Below, piece after piece: positions 2,463-63,937 of a stretch of 64,000 nt of DNA. The stretch is from contig NZ_CP042432.1 of NCBI RefSeq assembly GCF_008033235.1, positions 2,356,001 through 2,420,000 of the forward strand. Reading direction: 5' to 3'. The position numbers and the translations under genes are program-made. This DNA comes from Anseongella ginsenosidimutans (GTDB lineage: Bacteria > Bacteroidota > Bacteroidia > Sphingobacteriales > Sphingobacteriaceae). Below the pieces are notes generated by a model. That model was not told the origin of the DNA. It worked only from the letters and a program-made list of their open reading frames with translations, and did no database searches. Every line of letters starts with the position of its first letter. Within the stretch, counting starts at the first letter, position 1.

Positions 2463-3593
2463 TTAAAACGTTTTATTGTCTGTTATTAAGTTCCTTAGCT
2501 CTTCTTCAATGTGCTTTTTTAAATGATCCATGTCAGGCAGCCGCACCATATATTTTTGAATGAAAAGGTTTTCATCCATTCCCGCAGTAGCATATTTAAC
2601 CAAAGCGTGATCTTTTTCCGCAACAAGGAGAATTCCAACCGGAGGGTTATCGTTGTCTTCGCAAACTTCATCTTTATAATAATTCAAATAGGTATTAAGT
2701 TGCCCGATATCTCCGTGTTCAAATGCGCCTATTTTAAGTTCCAGGAGTATATGACTCTTCAATATCCGATGATAGAAAACCAAATCAATAAAGTAGTAGC
2801 TTTCTCCGATCAAAATTCTTTTTTGGCGCGCTTCCAAACAAAAGCCGTTGCCCAACTCAATGATAAACTGTTGTAAATGATCAAGTAAAGCTGTTTCTAA
2901 ATCAGATTCTTCTACCACGGAACGGGTAGAGATATCCAAAAACTCAAACGCATAGACATTTTTTATTACGTCTTTTGGAGCCTGTGGGACTATTTTTTGT
3001 CGAATCATATTAGCCAGTTTTTCAGGATGGCTGGAAAGACCGCTTCGTTCAAAATATAGGCTGTTAATTTGTCGTTTCAGTTCTCGAACACTCCACGTCC
3101 CTTTGATGCATTCGACTTCATAAAATGTGCGTTTTAGTGGGTCATCAATGTTTAGTAATAATTCCAGATGAGAATAGGAAAGTTTCGATATAAGCTTATC
3201 TGGTGGAACTTGTAATTCTTTTTCTAATTGTGGGGACACTGTTCCCACAATTCTGAGACTATCTTTTGTACGCAGCGTCTCAAGAATCTTATTGCCGGAT
3301 ATATGGTCGGACAGTATTTCGCGTAATTGAGGGTAAAAGAGATAGAATTCTCTAAATCTAAAAAGGGATCGCTTATCGATTCCCTTGATATGGCTTAATT
3401 TATTCGCAACGTTTTCAATTAAGCCTGTCCCGTATTTTGCCCTGTCTTCCCCGCTTTGTTCAAATTCAACAATGTAATACCCAATTAACCAATTTCTCAT
3501 AGTTAATGCCTGATTGACTGCATTAACTGCAACACCCTGCAAGTTTTGGTGAACGTTTTCAATAGTGGACAGGAGATGTTCAAAATTTTTCAT
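2463..3593 (-). CDS. yhcG: YhcG/DUF1016-family PD-(D/E)XK nuclease
   Basis: The 376-residue protein has the two-part YhcG architecture. An N-terminal helical DUF1016 domain occupies about residues 10-185 (MRNWLIGYYIVEFEQ, SHLELLLNID). A C-terminal PD-(D/E)XK-type nuclease domain follows, with D270 (FIDLVFYH), E285-L-K287 (LELKIG) and Q298 (GQLNTYLNYY) as the expected metal and catalytic residues. The family is usually called a putative restriction-like or mobile-DNA-associated nuclease; its substrate is not known to me. The gene is visibly more AT-rich than its neighbours. It points against the GH78 gene and lies between two copies of that gene's 3' end, both signs of recent acquisition. The 3' end contains a TAAAACGTTTTA palindrome over the stop codon (2463-2474). 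Confidence 0.85.
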   Translation of the reverse strand: MKNFEHLLSTIENVHQNLQGVAVNAVNQALTMRNWLIGYYIVEFEQSGEDRAKYGTGLIENVANKLSHIKGIDKRSLFRFREFYLFYPQLREILSDHISGNKILETLRTKDSLRIVGTVSPQLEKELQVPPDKLISKLSYSHLELLLNIDDPLKRTFYEVECIKGTWSVRELKRQINSLYFERSGLSSHPEKLANMIRQKIVPQAPKDVIKNVYAFEFLDISTRSVVEESDLETALLDHLQQFIIELGNGFCLEARQKRILIGESYYFIDLVFYHRILKSHILLELKIGAFEHGDIGQLNTYLNYYKDEVCEDNDNPPVGILLVAEKDHALVKYATAGMDENLFIQKYMVRLPDMDHLKKHIEEELRNLITDNKTF

Positions 3594-57153: not shown

Positions 57154-58509
57154 TCACTGTTCAAGTATAATAGAGAATGTACTTCCTTTATCCGCGACGG
57201 AATGCGCCCGTAACTGCCCTCCGTGCAATTGGATGATCTGCCTGGAAAGACTGAGCCCGATTCCTGAGCCCTTCTTTTTCGTAGTGAAAAACGGGATAAA
57301 TATATTTTCCATGGCTTCGGCTTCAATTCCGGGGCCGTTATCGCTTATTTCAAGGATCACCTGCTGCTGGTTACGGAAAGCTTTCAGCGAAATGACGCCA
57401 TCCGGAGTTTCCAAAAGAGCATCCCGGGCGTTTTTGATCAGGTTAATAAGCACCATATGCAGCTGTTCGCCGTCGGCCGTGATCTCCAGGTCGCCGGGCT
57501 GCACCTTGCTTCTGAGCTGAATGCCTTCCTGTTTCAGGTCGGGATCCATTAACTGGGTGACCGAGTGAATGATGTCCTTTACGCGAATGGTTGAAAAATG
57601 CGGTTTAGGCAGGCTGGTATAGTCCCGGTAGGCATTTACAAAGTTCATGATGCCCCGGCTCCTGTTTTCTACGGTTTGCAGGGCTTCCCGGAGATCCGCC
57701 GTTGCGTTTTCTGGAAGTCGATAAGTTTGAAGGTCATTTTCAACGATTTCCTTCATGGTGCCTATAAGCGAAACGATAGGGGTAATGGAATTCATGATCT
57801 CATGACGGAGGATGCGCGCCAGGTTTTGCCAGGCTTCCAGCTCCTTATCCTGAAGTTCGGAATGAATATTTTGGAGAGATACCAGTTTGATCAGTTTTCC
57901 CTGAAGGCGCAGTCCTGTGGCGCTGACCGAAAGCTGAAGGTTCTGGGACATAGGATAAAGGGATTTGCTTCCGGAGGGGAGGCGCCAGAACAAATTGGCC
58001 AGCCCGTCATGTGAATTTTCCAGTTCGGCGATATTCCTGAGCCGGTAGATCCCCAGCAGCCGGAATGCGGCAGGGTTGATAAGTTCTACCTTGCCGCTGC
58101 TGTCAAACGACAATACCCCGATATTAATTTGCTGGACAATCGTGTCAATGTATTTTAGGTTCGCTTCTTTTTCGGCCCGGGCTTCCCGGAAAGCTTCGAG
58201 GACCTGGTTGAATTGCCGGTTCAGATCCCGGAAACTTTTGCCTAGTTTATTATCGGAAGAAAAGCGAATGGAGAAATCGGAATAGTGGATGGATTCCAGG
58301 AAAAGCGCCAGTTTGCGGTTCACCCGGGTAATATAATGGTGAAGGCTGTAGCACTGCCACAAAGTTAACAGAAAGGGTATTATCAAAAGCAGCAGGCGGA
58401 AGGAACCGTTTACCTGGCGCTGCATCAACGCCCAGCAAAACAAACCTATCCCGGCTGCAATACCCAGTATTCGCAGGAAAAGAGAAATGCTGAAGCGCTC
58501 AAATGCCAT
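57154..58509 (-). CDS. NtrY-like sensor histidine kinase
   Basis: The 451-residue kinase has two N-terminal transmembrane helices (about 8-29 and 37-56) with almost no periplasmic loop. A HAMP-like linker, a PAS domain (about 118-215), a DHp helix with H236 (RHEIMNSITP) and a CATP domain (LINLIKNARDAL; DNGPGIEAEAM; GSGIGLSLSRQIIQLHGG) follow. Lack of a sensor loop suggests it detects membrane or cytoplasmic signals. It overlaps the sigma-54 activator gene by 11 bp. Confidence 0.93.
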   Translation of the reverse strand: MAFERFSISLFLRILGIAAGIGLFCWALMQRQVNGSFRLLLLIIPFLLTLWQCYSLHHYITRVNRKLALFLESIHYSDFSIRFSSDNKLGKSFRDLNRQFNQVLEAFREARAEKEANLKYIDTIVQQINIGVLSFDSSGKVELINPAAFRLLGIYRLRNIAELENSHDGLANLFWRLPSGSKSLYPMSQNLQLSVSATGLRLQGKLIKLVSLQNIHSELQDKELEAWQNLARILRHEIMNSITPIVSLIGTMKEIVENDLQTYRLPENATADLREALQTVENRSRGIMNFVNAYRDYTSLPKPHFSTIRVKDIIHSVTQLMDPDLKQEGIQLRSKVQPGDLEITADGEQLHMVLINLIKNARDALLETPDGVISLKAFRNQQQVILEISDNGPGIEAEAMENIFIPFFTTKKKGSGIGLSLSRQIIQLHGGQLRAHSVADKGSTFSIILEQ

Positions 58510-59848
58510 ATTTTTCTATTCTCCGGTATAATGCGGCCCGGCTCAGCCCTAGTTTACGCGCTGCTTCGGTAATGCTCCCGTTAAATTCGCGAAGGGCTTT
58601 CCTGATCAGTTCCCGTTCGGTTTCTTCCAGGTTGAAACCGGTATCGGCGTCTTTGCTGAAAGAACTGTTCTTTTTAAACACATGCTCCGGCTGTAAAAGG
58701 TCCGATTGTGCCAGGATAACCGCCCGTTCGATTGCGTGCTGCAATTCCCGTACGTTTCCCGGCCAGGGGTAGCGCATCAGCTGGCTCACCAGGGAGTCGC
58801 TGAGACGGCGGACTTCCCGCTTATATTTATCCCGGTATTGCTCCAGGAAATGCTGCGCAAGGAGTACGATGTCTTCCCGCCGCTCGCGTAAAGGCGGAAG
58901 CTGTATTTCAATCGTGTTGATCCTGTAGAGCAGGTCCTGCCGGAAGCTCCCCTCGTCCACCATTTTTTCCAAATCCCGGTTGCTGGCGCAAATCAACCGT
59001 ACATTCAGCGACCGCTGTTTATTGGAGCCCACAGGTACCACCACCCGGCTTTGCAGTACATTCAATAATTTAGCTTGCGCCGGCAGGGACAGGTTACTGA
59101 TTTCGTCCAGGAAAATAGTGCCTTTGTCTGCTTCTTCAAATCGTCCCTTGCGGTCCGCCCGTGCATCAGTAAAGGCGCCTTTAACATGTCCGAACAGTTC
59201 ACTTTCAAACAATGTTTCGGGAATGGCTCCCATATCAGCCGGTACAAAAGGCTGGTTGCTCCTTGCCGATAACTGATGGATATACCTGGCCAGCAGGTCT
59301 TTCCCCGTACCGTTTTCTCCCAGGATCAATACATTCGCATCGGTCCCCGCGATTTTTGCCGCCGTTTCCAGCAAAGCTTGCATCAGGGGGCTCTCGCCGA
59401 TTATAGGACTCGGCAGATCTTTTTTGTCTTCCGGCCCGGGTTCCTCTTTTTTCGGTTCAGGAACTGATTCTTTCATGGCTGACCGGACAGTAGCCAGCAG
59501 CTTATCGTTCTCCCAGGGTTTGAGGACAAAATCCGCCGCTCCTGCTTTTATGGCCCTGACCGCCATCTCCACATCGCCATAGGCGGTAAAAAGAATGACC
59601 ACAGCCTGGGGATTAAGATCAAGAATGCGGTCCAGCCAAAGAAATCCTTCTTTCCCGCTGCTGCGGTCGCGGGTGAAGTTCATGTCCAGCAGGATCACAT
59701 CGTATTGGTTATTGTTAAGCAGGTAAGGTATCTGCTGCGGGTTGCGTTCCCCCTCAACTTTGGCGAAATGTCTTTTTAGAAGCAATTGGGCGGCCCTGAG
59801 TACGTCCCAATCATCATCGATAATTAAAATAGTTCCTGTATGCGGCAT
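58499..59848 (-). CDS. NtrC-family sigma-54-dependent response regulator
   Basis: The 449-residue activator has a receiver domain (phospho-acceptor D55, LLDMNF). An AAA+ sigma-54 interaction domain follows: Walker A GENGTGKD 177-184, loop GAFTDA 224-229 where most have GAFTGA, Walker B TIFLDE 244-249. A Fis-type helix-turn-helix (SITEAARKLGLSRAALYRRI) ends it. GAFTDA is a tolerated variant in many activators. It diverges from the HlyD gene across a 316-bp interval with palindromes and a sigma-54-like promoter. Confidence 0.95.
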   Translation of the reverse strand: MPHTGTILIIDDDWDVLRAAQLLLKRHFAKVEGERNPQQIPYLLNNNQYDVILLDMNFTRDRSSGKEGFLWLDRILDLNPQAVVILFTAYGDVEMAVRAIKAGAADFVLKPWENDKLLATVRSAMKESVPEPKKEEPGPEDKKDLPSPIIGESPLMQALLETAAKIAGTDANVLILGENGTGKDLLARYIHQLSARSNQPFVPADMGAIPETLFESELFGHVKGAFTDARADRKGRFEEADKGTIFLDEISNLSLPAQAKLLNVLQSRVVVPVGSNKQRSLNVRLICASNRDLEKMVDEGSFRQDLLYRINTIEIQLPPLRERREDIVLLAQHFLEQYRDKYKREVRRLSDSLVSQLMRYPWPGNVRELQHAIERAVILAQSDLLQPEHVFKKNSSFSKDADTGFNLEETERELIRKALREFNGSITEAARKLGLSRAALYRRIEKYGI

Positions 59849-59989: not shown

Positions 59990-60064
59990 AACAATGCGTG
60001 TCCGTAAGCGAACGTTTTCAGGGATAAAAATACTGAAAAATTCTGTTCAACAGCCGTTTTGGGT

Positions 60065-60084
60065 TCTGGCACGGCGATTGGCTG
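60065..60084 (+). promoter_or_regulatory. Sigma-54-like promoter of the efflux operon
   Basis: tctggcacggcgattggctg resembles TGGCAC-N5-TTGC. The -24 box is perfect, but the -12 box reads TTGGC, so GG to GC spacing is one base longer than the consensus. It lies about 80 bp before ATG 60165 and inside an imperfect CAGCC/GGCTG inverted repeat. Confidence 0.45.
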
Positions 60085-60164
60085 TATGGATGAGCCGGCG
60101 AAAAGCAGGCCCTGATGTGGCAATAACAAAAATAACGGCCACACTTGCACAAGCGGATAAGATC

Positions 60165-61415
60165 ATGGATAGGAAGTTAGAGAAAAAGTTTTGGACTAAA
60201 CAGCGCATTTTTATGATGGGAGGAGGCGCCTTGCTGGTTTTTGTACTCTTGTACAGCCTCGTGTTCGCTGATCACCGCTCTAAACTGAACGTGGAAAGAG
60301 AGAAGATCACTGTTTCTACTGTGCAAAAGGGCATATTTGATGAATATATTGTTGTGACAGCGGTTGTGCAGCCCTTGAAAACAATACGGCTGGACGCGGT
60401 GCAGGGAGGCTATGTGGTGGGAAAATACCTGGACGGTGGTACGATGGTGGAAAAAGGGGATTCTATTCTCCGCCTGGAAAACCAGGATCTGACCCTTAGT
60501 TACGTAAACCACGAAACAGAAATTTATCGCCTTATCAATGAACTTCAAAGCACGCGCCTTCAGCTCCGGCAAAACCGGTATCAGCTGGAAAGTGCGCTTT
60601 CTGATCTGCAGGCCCAGCTGAAGGCGGCAAAAGACCTGTACGACAGGAATAAGCTCCTTTATGATGATCAGGTGATCTCCGAGCAGGAGTTCCTGAAATA
60701 TAAGATCGACTACGAGCGGTTAAAAGAACAAAACCGTATTGAAGTAGAGTCCCAGAAATACCAGGAACAGAACGCGGAGTTGCAGATCAAGCAATTGGAA
60801 GGGACCATTGACCGTACCCAGCGGAACCTGGAATTGATGAAAGCCAGCCTGGATAACCTCATCATCAGGGCGCCTATTTCCGGTCTTCTTTCTTCCATAG
60901 ACGTGGAAGTCGGGTCCAGTATCAGCGCCGGCGAAAATATTGGGCAGATAGACGTCATAGACGGTTATAAACTACGCGCCCAGATAGATGAACATTATAT
61001 TTCCCGCCTTTTTGCCGGGTTGAAGGCTTCCTTTGAATTTGGCGGCAAAACGCATGAGCTAACAGTCCGGAAGGTATATCCTGAAGTGCTTAACGGCAGA
61101 TTTGAAGTTGACCTGGAGTTTGCCGGCGCCGCACCCGAAGGAATCCGGCGCGGCCTCTCCCTGCCTGTGCGGGTTGGGCTTGGAAAATCCGCTGAAGCCG
61201 TATTGCTTTCAAGCGGAGGTTTCTTTTCCCATACAGGCGGAAACTGGGTATATGTCCTTGATGGAGATGGCACCCGTGCCGTGAAACGAAGCATTACGCT
61301 CGGCCGGAAAAACCCCGAGTATTTCGAGGTCCTGGAAGGCTTGCAGCCGGGGGAAAAAGTGATAACTTCATCCTATGATAATTTCGGAGACAAGGAAGTA
61401 TTACAAATGAATTAA
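60165..61415 (+). CDS. HlyD/MacA-type periplasmic adaptor of an ABC efflux system
   Basis: The 416-residue protein has one N-terminal transmembrane helix (about 15-36). A long coiled-coil hairpin follows (about 110-220; ELQSTRLQLRQNRYQLESAL, QNAELQIKQLEGTIDRTQRN), flanked by lipoyl halves (ILRLENQDL; RAPISGLLSSIDVEVGSSIS), then beta-barrel and membrane-proximal parts. This is the MacA layout for coupling an inner-membrane ABC transporter to an outer-membrane channel. ATG 60165 is chosen since the frame's earlier codons are regulatory DNA. The ABC ATPase follows 4 bp later. Confidence 0.92.
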   Translation: MDRKLEKKFWTKQRIFMMGGGALLVFVLLYSLVFADHRSKLNVEREKITVSTVQKGIFDEYIVVTAVVQPLKTIRLDAVQGGYVVGKYLDGGTMVEKGDSILRLENQDLTLSYVNHETEIYRLINELQSTRLQLRQNRYQLESALSDLQAQLKAAKDLYDRNKLLYDDQVISEQEFLKYKIDYERLKEQNRIEVESQKYQEQNAELQIKQLEGTIDRTQRNLELMKASLDNLIIRAPISGLLSSIDVEVGSSISAGENIGQIDVIDGYKLRAQIDEHYISRLFAGLKASFEFGGKTHELTVRKVYPEVLNGRFEVDLEFAGAAPEGIRRGLSLPVRVGLGKSAEAVLLSSGGFFSHTGGNWVYVLDGDGTRAVKRSITLGRKNPEYFEVLEGLQPGEKVITSSYDNFGDKEVLQMN

Positions 61416-61419
61416 CCAT

Positions 61420-62109
61420 ATGATCATTACAAAGAACCTGCAAAAGACCTTCACCACAGAAGAGGTGGAAACCACTGCGCTGGCCGGCATTGACATGGAA
61501 ATACAAGACGGAGAATTCGTAGCTATCATGGGGCCTTCCGGCTGCGGGAAATCAACATTGTTGAATATCCTGGGTCTTCTTGATAATCCTTCCGACGGGG
61601 AATACCACTTTTGGGGCGAAGAAGTAGCCAAGGTATCCGAACGCAATCGCGTTCGCCTGCGCAAGGGAAATATAGGCTTCGTTTTCCAAAGCTTTAACCT
61701 TATCGATGAACTTACCGTTTTTGAAAACGTGGAACTGCCGCTCCTGTATCTGAAGGTGCCTTCCGCCGAACGTAAGATCAAGGTAGAGGCCGCTCTCGAA
61801 CGCATGGGCATCATGCATCGGCGTAATCATTTCCCCCAGCAGCTTTCCGGCGGCCAGCAGCAGCGTACCGCCATTGCCCGGGCCGTTGTAGCCCGGCCAC
61901 GCCTGATCCTTGCCGACGAACCCACCGGTAATCTTGATTCAGCTAACGGAGAAGAGGTGATGAAGCTCCTTAGCGAGCTGAATGAAGCCGGCACTACGTT
62001 AGTAATGGTAACCCACTCGCCTTATGATGCGGGCTTTGCTCACAGGACCGTCAATTTATTCGACGGAAAGATTGTCACGGAAAATATCCGGGAACAATTT
62101 CACGTTTAA
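61420..62109 (+). CDS. MacB/LolD-type ABC ATPase
   Basis: The 229-residue ATPase has Walker A (GPSGCGKST), signature ([14 protein letters not shown]), Walker B ([13 protein letters not shown]) and switch His (VTHSPYDAG). It is of the MacB/LolD group that works with FtsX-fold permeases and MacA adaptors. The permease expected next is reduced to a fragment (62191-62340), so this ATPase either lost its partner or uses one encoded elsewhere. Confidence 0.95.
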
Positions 62110-62190
62110 TAATTCCGGTAAGGTATAACCCGGGTAGTGTAATAATTAATAATTCAAGCTATCTCCAAAAAAATTTAAAACCGGGAATTC

Positions 62191-62340
62191 ATGCTGAAAA
62201 GTTATTTCAAGTTAGCAATTATTCCACTGCTGAGCATGGCAGCCGGCGTGTGCGTATGCTGGTTCATGGTCACCTGGGTAGAACACGAGTGTTATTTCCT
62301 GTATCTTGAGTCAGCAAGCAATATCGCGATCATTCCTTGA
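62191..62340 (+). pseudogene. N-terminal remnant of a MacB-like ABC permease
   Basis: A 49-codon frame begins MLKSYFKLAI, the usual start of Bacteroidota MacB-type permeases (consensus MLKNYFKIAxRN), and goes on with MAAGVCVCWFMVTWVEHE, resembling their first TM region. About ten residues between these parts appear deleted. The frame stops at TGA 62338-62340. The expected 400 or so residues of loop and three more TMs are missing. Its last 11 bp overlap the 3' end of the Rpn nuclease gene on the other strand. It lies 81 bp after the ABC ATPase, exactly where the permease should be. Confidence 0.6.
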
Positions 62341-63400
62341 TCGAGGTAGCTTTCTTACTTTTAAAGAGGCTCTGCCGCACATGTTTTACAAACTCGACAG
62401 AAACCTCGGCTACCCCGGCGGCCTGCCGGTCATTGAGGTCCAGCTGCAGAATAAGGTTTCTGACGAAGCGTTCCTTTCCCTGCCGGAGCCCTTTTTCGAC
62501 ACCTTTTTCGATTCCTTTTTCAATTCCCTGGCTCATGGCCTTATCCAGTAAATATTCTTCAGTTCCCATAGCGATATTCCTTTTTGTTAATTCCTTTATA
62601 TCCTGTTCAAAAATCGATTTTATTTCCTCATCCCTGAAATGCACGAAATGATTTAAAAAGTTGAATACTGCCCGCTGCCTTATCTTGTCGAGATTCCTTC
62701 CAAGCATTTCCTTTAACAAGTCACGCTTCATATTCAAAAGCTCGTACCCACCCTGGTTTTTATTTTTTATGTACAGGAGTGTCGTGAGGATGATCAAGGC
62801 AAAAGGGTTAGAATTGGCCCTTAACATCTCTTCATCCTGGTCCAATATTTTATAGCTGTTAAACTTATATATGAGGCTTGTTCCCAGGCACTCCTCCGTA
62901 TAAATTCCGGGGCGGAAACTCTTATTATTATCCGTAAGTATAGCCAGCGACGTCACCGGTATCCTGTATTTATCCTTTACCCGGTACCAATAACGGTGCA
63001 TTCTTTTCGTAAATTCCTCCCGGCCTCTTTGCCCCTGCACTTCAATATGGGTCAGAAAACATTTTTCAGTATTGTCTTTCAAATACACTTTTACCAGTTT
63101 ATCTACGTGCCGCACGCCGGTATCCGATTCTTCAGGGGATAGAAGCTGGTCAAATTCTTTGTCCAGGTAGGAGAATCCCCTGCCAAAGTCAAAACTTTCG
63201 CAGGCCGCAGGGAAGAAAAAACGCAGAAAATCCTCGAAGAGGTCTTCTAGTGCCGCTTTCCATAACCGGTCGTCCCGCTGATGATATTCATTACGCTCAT
63301 TGACGTCTTCAACGCATAAGCGCGAAGGAAAAAATCTAAACGGGGCAATGGTTTCTTCGTAGGTCATATTCATAAGGCGAGTTGTGATTGGTCGTGTCAT
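62330..63400 (-). CDS. Rpn-family PD-(D/E)XK recombination-promoting nuclease
   Basis: The roughly 356-residue protein matches the Rpn/transposase_31-like family. The opening DDRLWKAALEDLFEDFLRFF is followed by DKLVKVYLKDN and a HIEVQGQR active-site strand (D...ExQ form of PD-(D/E)XK). A C-terminal EKG-rich repeat (GIEKGIEKGVEKGLRQGKE) then leads to a helical tail. Rpn proteins are DNA endonucleases that promote RecA-independent recombination in E. coli. The start is uncertain: ATG 63400, 63373 or 63367 are all possible. It lies in place of an ABC permease, in opposite orientation. Confidence 0.85.
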   Translation of the reverse strand: MTRPITTRLMNMTYEETIAPFRFFPSRLCVEDVNERNEYHQRDDRLWKAALEDLFEDFLRFFFPAACESFDFGRGFSYLDKEFDQLLSPEESDTGVRHVDKLVKVYLKDNTEKCFLTHIEVQGQRGREEFTKRMHRYWYRVKDKYRIPVTSLAILTDNNKSFRPGIYTEECLGTSLIYKFNSYKILDQDEEMLRANSNPFALIILTTLLYIKNKNQGGYELLNMKRDLLKEMLGRNLDKIRQRAVFNFLNHFVHFRDEEIKSIFEQDIKELTKRNIAMGTEEYLLDKAMSQGIEKGIEKGVEKGLRQGKERFVRNLILQLDLNDRQAAGVAEVSVEFVKHVRQSLFKSKKATSIKE

Positions 63401-63517
63401 GCAAATATAATAATTAATGCATAACATATAAAATATTTAGTAAAACCAAACTGCATAACCCGGGCGCCAGGAACGCTTTGCCCGTTTCTTGAAGCCGTCT
63501 TCTTCGATGGTGGTCGT

Positions 63518-63937
63518 TCAGTTTTTATATTTTTCGTTCAGATAGCTTACCGTGGCGTTAACCAGTTTTTCCAACGCAGGCTGATGAATGTCAGAAAGCT
63601 TTTTGACATAAATACAGGCTTTTCCCATTTTAAACTTACCTAAATCCCTGAGCAGGTGCTTATGTTCTTCAAGCCCGGTAAACACGTATAAGGATATCGC
63701 TGCCTTTCTTGGCGAAAAGCCTACCAGGGGCGCGTCACCTTCGTGACCACTTTCATACTTGTAATGGTAACTGCCAAAGCCGATGATGGATGGGCCCCAC
63801 ATTCTTGGCTCATGCCCGGAGGCCTCCTGCATAAGCCGCAGCAATTCGTAACTATCTTTTTGCTTCTGTTCTGTAGCGGCGAATGAATGAATGAAGTCAA
63901 GCACATTTGCGTCGGTCGCTGTTGTTTTATTTGCCAT
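63518..63937 (-). CDS. DUF1801 domain protein
   Basis: The 139-residue cytoplasmic protein matches DUF1801: LDFIHSFAATEQKQKDSYEL, then MWGPSIIGFGSYHYKY, and DAPLVGFSPRKAAISLYVF with a terminal EKLVNATVSYLNEKY. The fold is like YdhG/frataxin and occurs alone or fused to other domains; its function is unknown. Downstream, about 100 bp separate it from the Rpn gene. The 63 bp between its start and the window end contain no supported gene. Confidence 0.88.
   Translation of the reverse strand: MANKTTATDANVLDFIHSFAATEQKQKDSYELLRLMQEASGHEPRMWGPSIIGFGSYHYKYESGHEGDAPLVGFSPRKAAISLYVFTGLEEHKHLLRDLGKFKMGKACIYVKKLSDIHQPALEKLVNATVSYLNEKYKN

Follow-up and report, generated by a model that had tools for sequence, protein, structure and literature searches.

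The adaptor-ATPase operon and its surroundings

The genome of Anseongella ginsenosidimutans is a single contig of 4.32 Mb, and the stretch analyzed in this work (64,000 nucleotides, bases 2356001-2420000, hereafter the window) carries an operon with an intact periplasmic adaptor and an intact ATPase, divergent from the genes of a two-component system (Table 1). The annotated start of the adaptor is probably too early, the true one lying further in than 59994. In relatives the kinase and the regulator are likewise divergent from the adaptor and the ATPase, which are followed by several permeases of about 800 residues. At this locus the ATPase gene is followed, 81 bp past its stop codon, by an open reading frame of only 49 codons, the last bases of which are overlapped by an Rpn-like gene of the opposite strand; direct reading of the sequence bore out the initial annotation in the position and extent of this ORF.

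All motifs of the ATPase are present, namely Walker A, the signature, Walker B (LILADEP, read by eye) and the H-loop. The operon resembles the DarBCD darobactin exporter and MacAB in that, of the models searched, DarC is the nearest to its adaptor and DarD to its ATPase, and in that the ATPase is encoded separately from the permease. It differs in that all model matches fall below the equivalog cut-offs (E 1.3e-80 for the ATPase against the DarD model, under its cut-off) and in that the adjoining permease, which is intact in MacAB/Dar-type operons, is represented here by two remnants.

Table 1. Features of the locus and related features of the genome. Coordinates are those of the window unless given as genome bases or as L-numbered loci.
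Feature	Coordinates	Strand	Evidence and remarks
Sensor histidine kinase of the divergent two-component pair	57154..58509	-	Adjoins the same operon in most relatives; best identity 55% (G272)
NtrC-type (sigma-54) response regulator	58499..59848	-	NCBIfam matches of NtrC/AtoC type; 62% identity to G272
MacA/DarC-like periplasmic adaptor, intact	59994..61415	+	PF13437; DarC model, E 5e-64; 60% identity to G320/G272
MacB/DarD-like ATPase, intact	61420..62109	+	Motifs; DarD model; at most 83% identity to orthologs in other families
ADOP-like permease, 5' remnant (49 codons)	62191..62340	+	N-terminal HMM and pairwise alignment
Rpn-like gene, intact	62330..63427	-	Distant TIGR01784 match; conserved Met near residue 290 (MGTEEYLL), then GIEK/GVEK repeats
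DUF1801 gene, presumed second passenger between the permease ends	63518..63937	-	PF08818, E 2.5e-12
Permease, 3' remnant (last 24 codons)	64096-64167, past the window end (genome 2420096-2420167)	+	Profile of nine intact permeases
YhcG/DUF1016 PDDEXK nuclease gene	2463-3593	-	PADLOC PDC-S02
Second ATPase type	L167:9500-10204 (genome 2440500-2441204; start also given as 2440554)		53% identical to the operon ATPase
Broken Rpn copy	L226:5444-6026		Read in two frames
Permease split by IS21-type element	genome 3690278/3695057
Frame-broken permease	genome 1253026/1253760
Permease without first half	genome 127759
Two permeases collapsed to their ends	genome 2700569-2701122; 3977939-3978168
Two permeases preserved as 3' ends only	genome 3972313, 3974803
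C-terminal permease pieces	L174:6569-7122, L176:8437-11287, L234:8220-8513, L234:10800-11024, L234:13939-14174

The permease remnants and the permease family

The 49-codon ORF is the decayed start, corresponding to codons 1-57, of a MacB/FtsX-type (ADOP-like) permease. An HMM built from 46 permease N-termini, taken from this genome and from relatives, gave it 18.6 bits (E 2e-4, with about 2160 sequences in the set), the top score among 2000 shuffled versions being 5.7 bits, and its pairwise score against the best permease was 67, as compared with 34 ± 4.5 (maximum 56) for 300 shuffles. Residues 1-9 of the permeases match, the following 11 residues are absent in frame, and the alignment then continues through the first membrane segment to residue 57. 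As the identical gap appears against several different permeases and the match is above chance, the internal deletion suspected in the initial annotation is real. The best identity of the fragment is 38%, compared with a median best identity of 68% for intact permease N-termini, which indicates its decay.

The other end of a permease was detected in the same genome with a profile of nine intact permeases (E 6.2e-8, 81% identity over 26 aa). It lies 96-167 bases past the last base of the window, in the orientation of the operon, and is the only permease sequence in the 11 kb read past the Rpn-like gene, where no intact permease was found. Between the two ends there are two minus-strand genes (Rpn-like and DUF1801), and the permease interior is gone; that this segment is flanked by two permease ends of the same orientation supports the loss of an interior. 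Both ends may come from one permease, or they may be the beginning of the first and the end of the last member of a tandem array, i.e., belong to different source permeases.

The loss of the permease from the operon, proposed earlier, is consistent with the state of this locus in relatives, most of which possess a full permease where only remnants are found here. Downstream of the ATPase, 35 of 42 orthologous loci have a permease start that looks intact (in one of them a 215-residue ORF comes first); at this place relatives carry a full permease and no conserved short ORF. The remaining seven loci comprise a frame-broken permease (G019), two unassigned ORFs of similar size and four cases with neither. 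These four are the loci of this genome, of G050, of G037 and of G004 (where a recognized adaptor is lacking too). The permease is kept in six genomes whose ATPases belong to the same clade (79-83% identity; G245, G320, G272, G190, G297 and G129). The losses in the three relatives adjoin unrelated genes: an RHS-like tail and an IS3-like element in G050 (both named from sequence, the RHS-like tail having no Pfam match), and in the others an HTH gene with a DbpA helicase and a LUD gene with FtsH. Judging from G245, which belongs to the same genus as G050 and retains the permease, the losses in G050 and in this genome look independent. An empty site was sought through the downstream gene order; DUF1801, DUF4097 and the following genes found no counterparts in the relatives' loci, and therefore none was drawn. 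The array of G272 (L219:10239-18000) includes permeases with the permease prefix domain 2, and a short ORF ahead of them may be a PadR-type regulator.

Ten intact permeases are encoded elsewhere in the genome, none of them near an ATPase or an adaptor, and close homologs of some of them (54-70% identity) stand inside the operon in relatives. They pass the Pfam MacB_PCD and FtsX cut-offs and match TIGR03434 (ADOP) over the full length (E 6e-95, 319 bits, below the curated cut-off of 622). Similarly to ADOP, they are about 800 residues long, consist of two MacB_PCD-FtsX halves and occur in many copies without a neighboring ATPase; apart from the lower score, they differ in that in this class they often form arrays behind one adaptor-ATPase pair. 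Seven other permeases of the genome are wrecked (Table 1), none of them at an Rpn locus. Five of six C-terminal permease pieces start within about residues 718-739, a shared breakpoint. Two of the alignments were made without loci that contain in-frame stops.

The Rpn-like gene

The Rpn-like gene scored 23.8 bits against TIGR01784 (cut-off 52.1) and has no Pfam match of its own, PF04754 being matched by 7 of its 16 aligned relatives. Putative active-site residues (D109 and E129-x-Q131) are conserved in the alignment. The model of the protein has a mean pLDDT of 75, and the C-terminal domain is helical; a structure search for the PD-(D/E)XK fold gave no PDB match at E<=0.001, a comparison of the alignment with solved structures by sequence gave no convincing match, and a defence-database search with the Rpn-like and DUF1801 genes gave none. 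Residues 1-49 are of low confidence in the model, for which reason the true start is probably near residue 47, downstream of the start annotated from the longest ORF; the same residues are unaligned in most relatives.

In Escherichia coli RpnL/RpnS, the internal start of RpnS is a Met with tetrapeptide repeats within 8-20 residues (PMC10327210). The Rpn-like gene carries a Met-Gly motif near residue 290, found in 13 of the 14 sequences examined (this one included) and often preceded by a purine-rich stretch, and its GIEK four-residue repeats start 14 residues past this internal Met, i.e., within the range given for RpnS. With these features, the helical C-terminal domain, the distant similarity to TIGR01784 and the link to PF04754 through relatives, the gene appears to have the gene-within-gene anatomy of RpnL/RpnS with a putative intragenic RpnS. 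It differs from the E. coli genes in scoring below the curated cut-off and in that no solved nuclease matched its structure significantly, and the small form is putative here.

The initial annotation suggested searching for the Rpn gene at other sites, and its relatives were indeed found in nine genomes, including this one, in a search of 60; at the eight other loci, viewed whole and not neighbor by neighbor, no flanking deletion was evident. This genome also contains a broken Rpn copy (Table 1). Around the Rpn segment, only weak, chance-level repeats were found in the search for terminal inverted repeats and target-site duplications. The initial annotation called the Rpn gene the second PD-(D/E)XK-type nuclease gene of the window to lie beside a truncated gene. 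The other one, probably the YhcG/DUF1016 gene, belongs to a different family, and therefore the two form no pattern.

Co-occurrence and proposed trans use of the adaptor-ATPase pair

In a set of 60 relatives, the ATPase ortholog (E <= 1e-90) occurs together with the permeases (E <= 1e-80) in 21, the ATPase alone in none and the permeases alone in one, and among 295 genomes of the class (ATPase threshold 1e-88) the respective numbers are 41, 0 and 4 (Fisher p 5e-46); all these thresholds were chosen by us, the two sets overlap, and shared ancestry and, in genomes with an intact operon, physical linkage inflate the counts. Within genera, the ATPase-permease pair is jointly present or absent (G002/G026, G005/G029, G016/G286, G324/G057). 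G015 is a counter-case, with many permeases and an ATPase only 51% identical. A second ATPase type is encoded 22 kb downstream of the operon and could serve the dispersed permeases instead. Its homolog (67-68% identical) ends the far side of the permease array in several relatives.

On the basis of both remnants, the intact adaptor and ATPase, the dispersed permeases and the co-occurrence, we read this as a permease locus in decay and consider it likely that its adaptor and ATPase act in trans for permeases encoded elsewhere. Next to the divergent two-component system, the ancestral operon would have encoded the adaptor, the ATPase and at least one ADOP-like permease. A permease gene, or a tandem array counted from its first permease to its last, would then have lost its interior, its two surviving ends would have come to flank the segment with the Rpn-like and DUF1801 genes, and further decay would have affected the 5' one; we infer this order of events. 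The adaptor and the ATPase would have stayed intact because the ten same-family permeases elsewhere still depend on them in trans. More tentatively, and somewhat short of being probable, one adaptor-ATPase pair may be the motor that drives ten or more MacB/ADOP-type permeases encoded apart from it, the permease of the operon itself being dispensable and repeatedly lost.

Intact genes alone are no proof of function, and the operon might be dead. The adaptor and the ATPase would then simply have escaped degradation so far, and the dispersed permeases would use another ATPase or none. The 53%-identical ATPase and further MacB-class ATPases of the genome would agree with this, as would the several other broken permeases. 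Against it, the 5' remnant is strongly decayed, so that, given its divergence from the intact N-termini, time has passed since the permease loss, while the reading frames and motifs of the adaptor and the ATPase are intact and their nearest orthologs are 60-83% identical; the ATPase without permeases, moreover, was found in none of the 295 genomes. A dead operon thus appears rather unlikely. Still far less probable is that the short ORF encodes a functional small membrane protein: its frame is open, a transmembrane segment is plausible and it lies directly past the ATPase gene, yet it can be aligned with the first 57 residues of full permeases, a whole permease stands at this position in relatives and a matching 3' end is found further along.

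The initial annotation also considered that the Rpn gene had caused or accompanied the deletion. In the former case, cutting or recombination by the nuclease would have excised the interior of the permease, with the Rpn gene staying at the site. The gene does sit at the break, and Rpn proteins are reported to contribute to RecA-independent horizontal transfer (PMC5350276). However, a DUF1801 gene shares the gap, the ends have no repeats, permeases have lost pieces at Rpn-free sites both in this genome and in relatives, and other Rpn loci revealed no flanking deletions. As the locus is one of several permease wrecks in the genome, a causal role is disfavored and seems very improbable to us; accompaniment is possible, and we regard the gene, which is of the RpnL/RpnS type, as most probably a passenger.

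Trans use by the adaptor-ATPase pair would have parallels in other ABC systems. Shared ATPases are known there, namely MsmK (PMC4519317) and MceG (PMC9947336), and with MsmK, MsiK and MceG the locus would have in common one ATPase proposed to energize several separately encoded permeases. Those systems are importers, unlike the MacB-type exporters or mechanotransmission pumps considered here, for which the trans use is our proposal. A literature search for adaptor-ATPase operons whose MacB-type permeases are orphans gave nothing relevant, as judged by abstract.

The permease loss is ordinary gene decay, and the interesting part is that one motor may be shared by many permeases. If the ATPase does act in trans, it would be the motor of some of the duplicated permeases that are so often orphans in this class. 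If the pair is a common motor, the specificity of these exporters would be modular across the class, the motor staying constant and the permeases being exchangeable.
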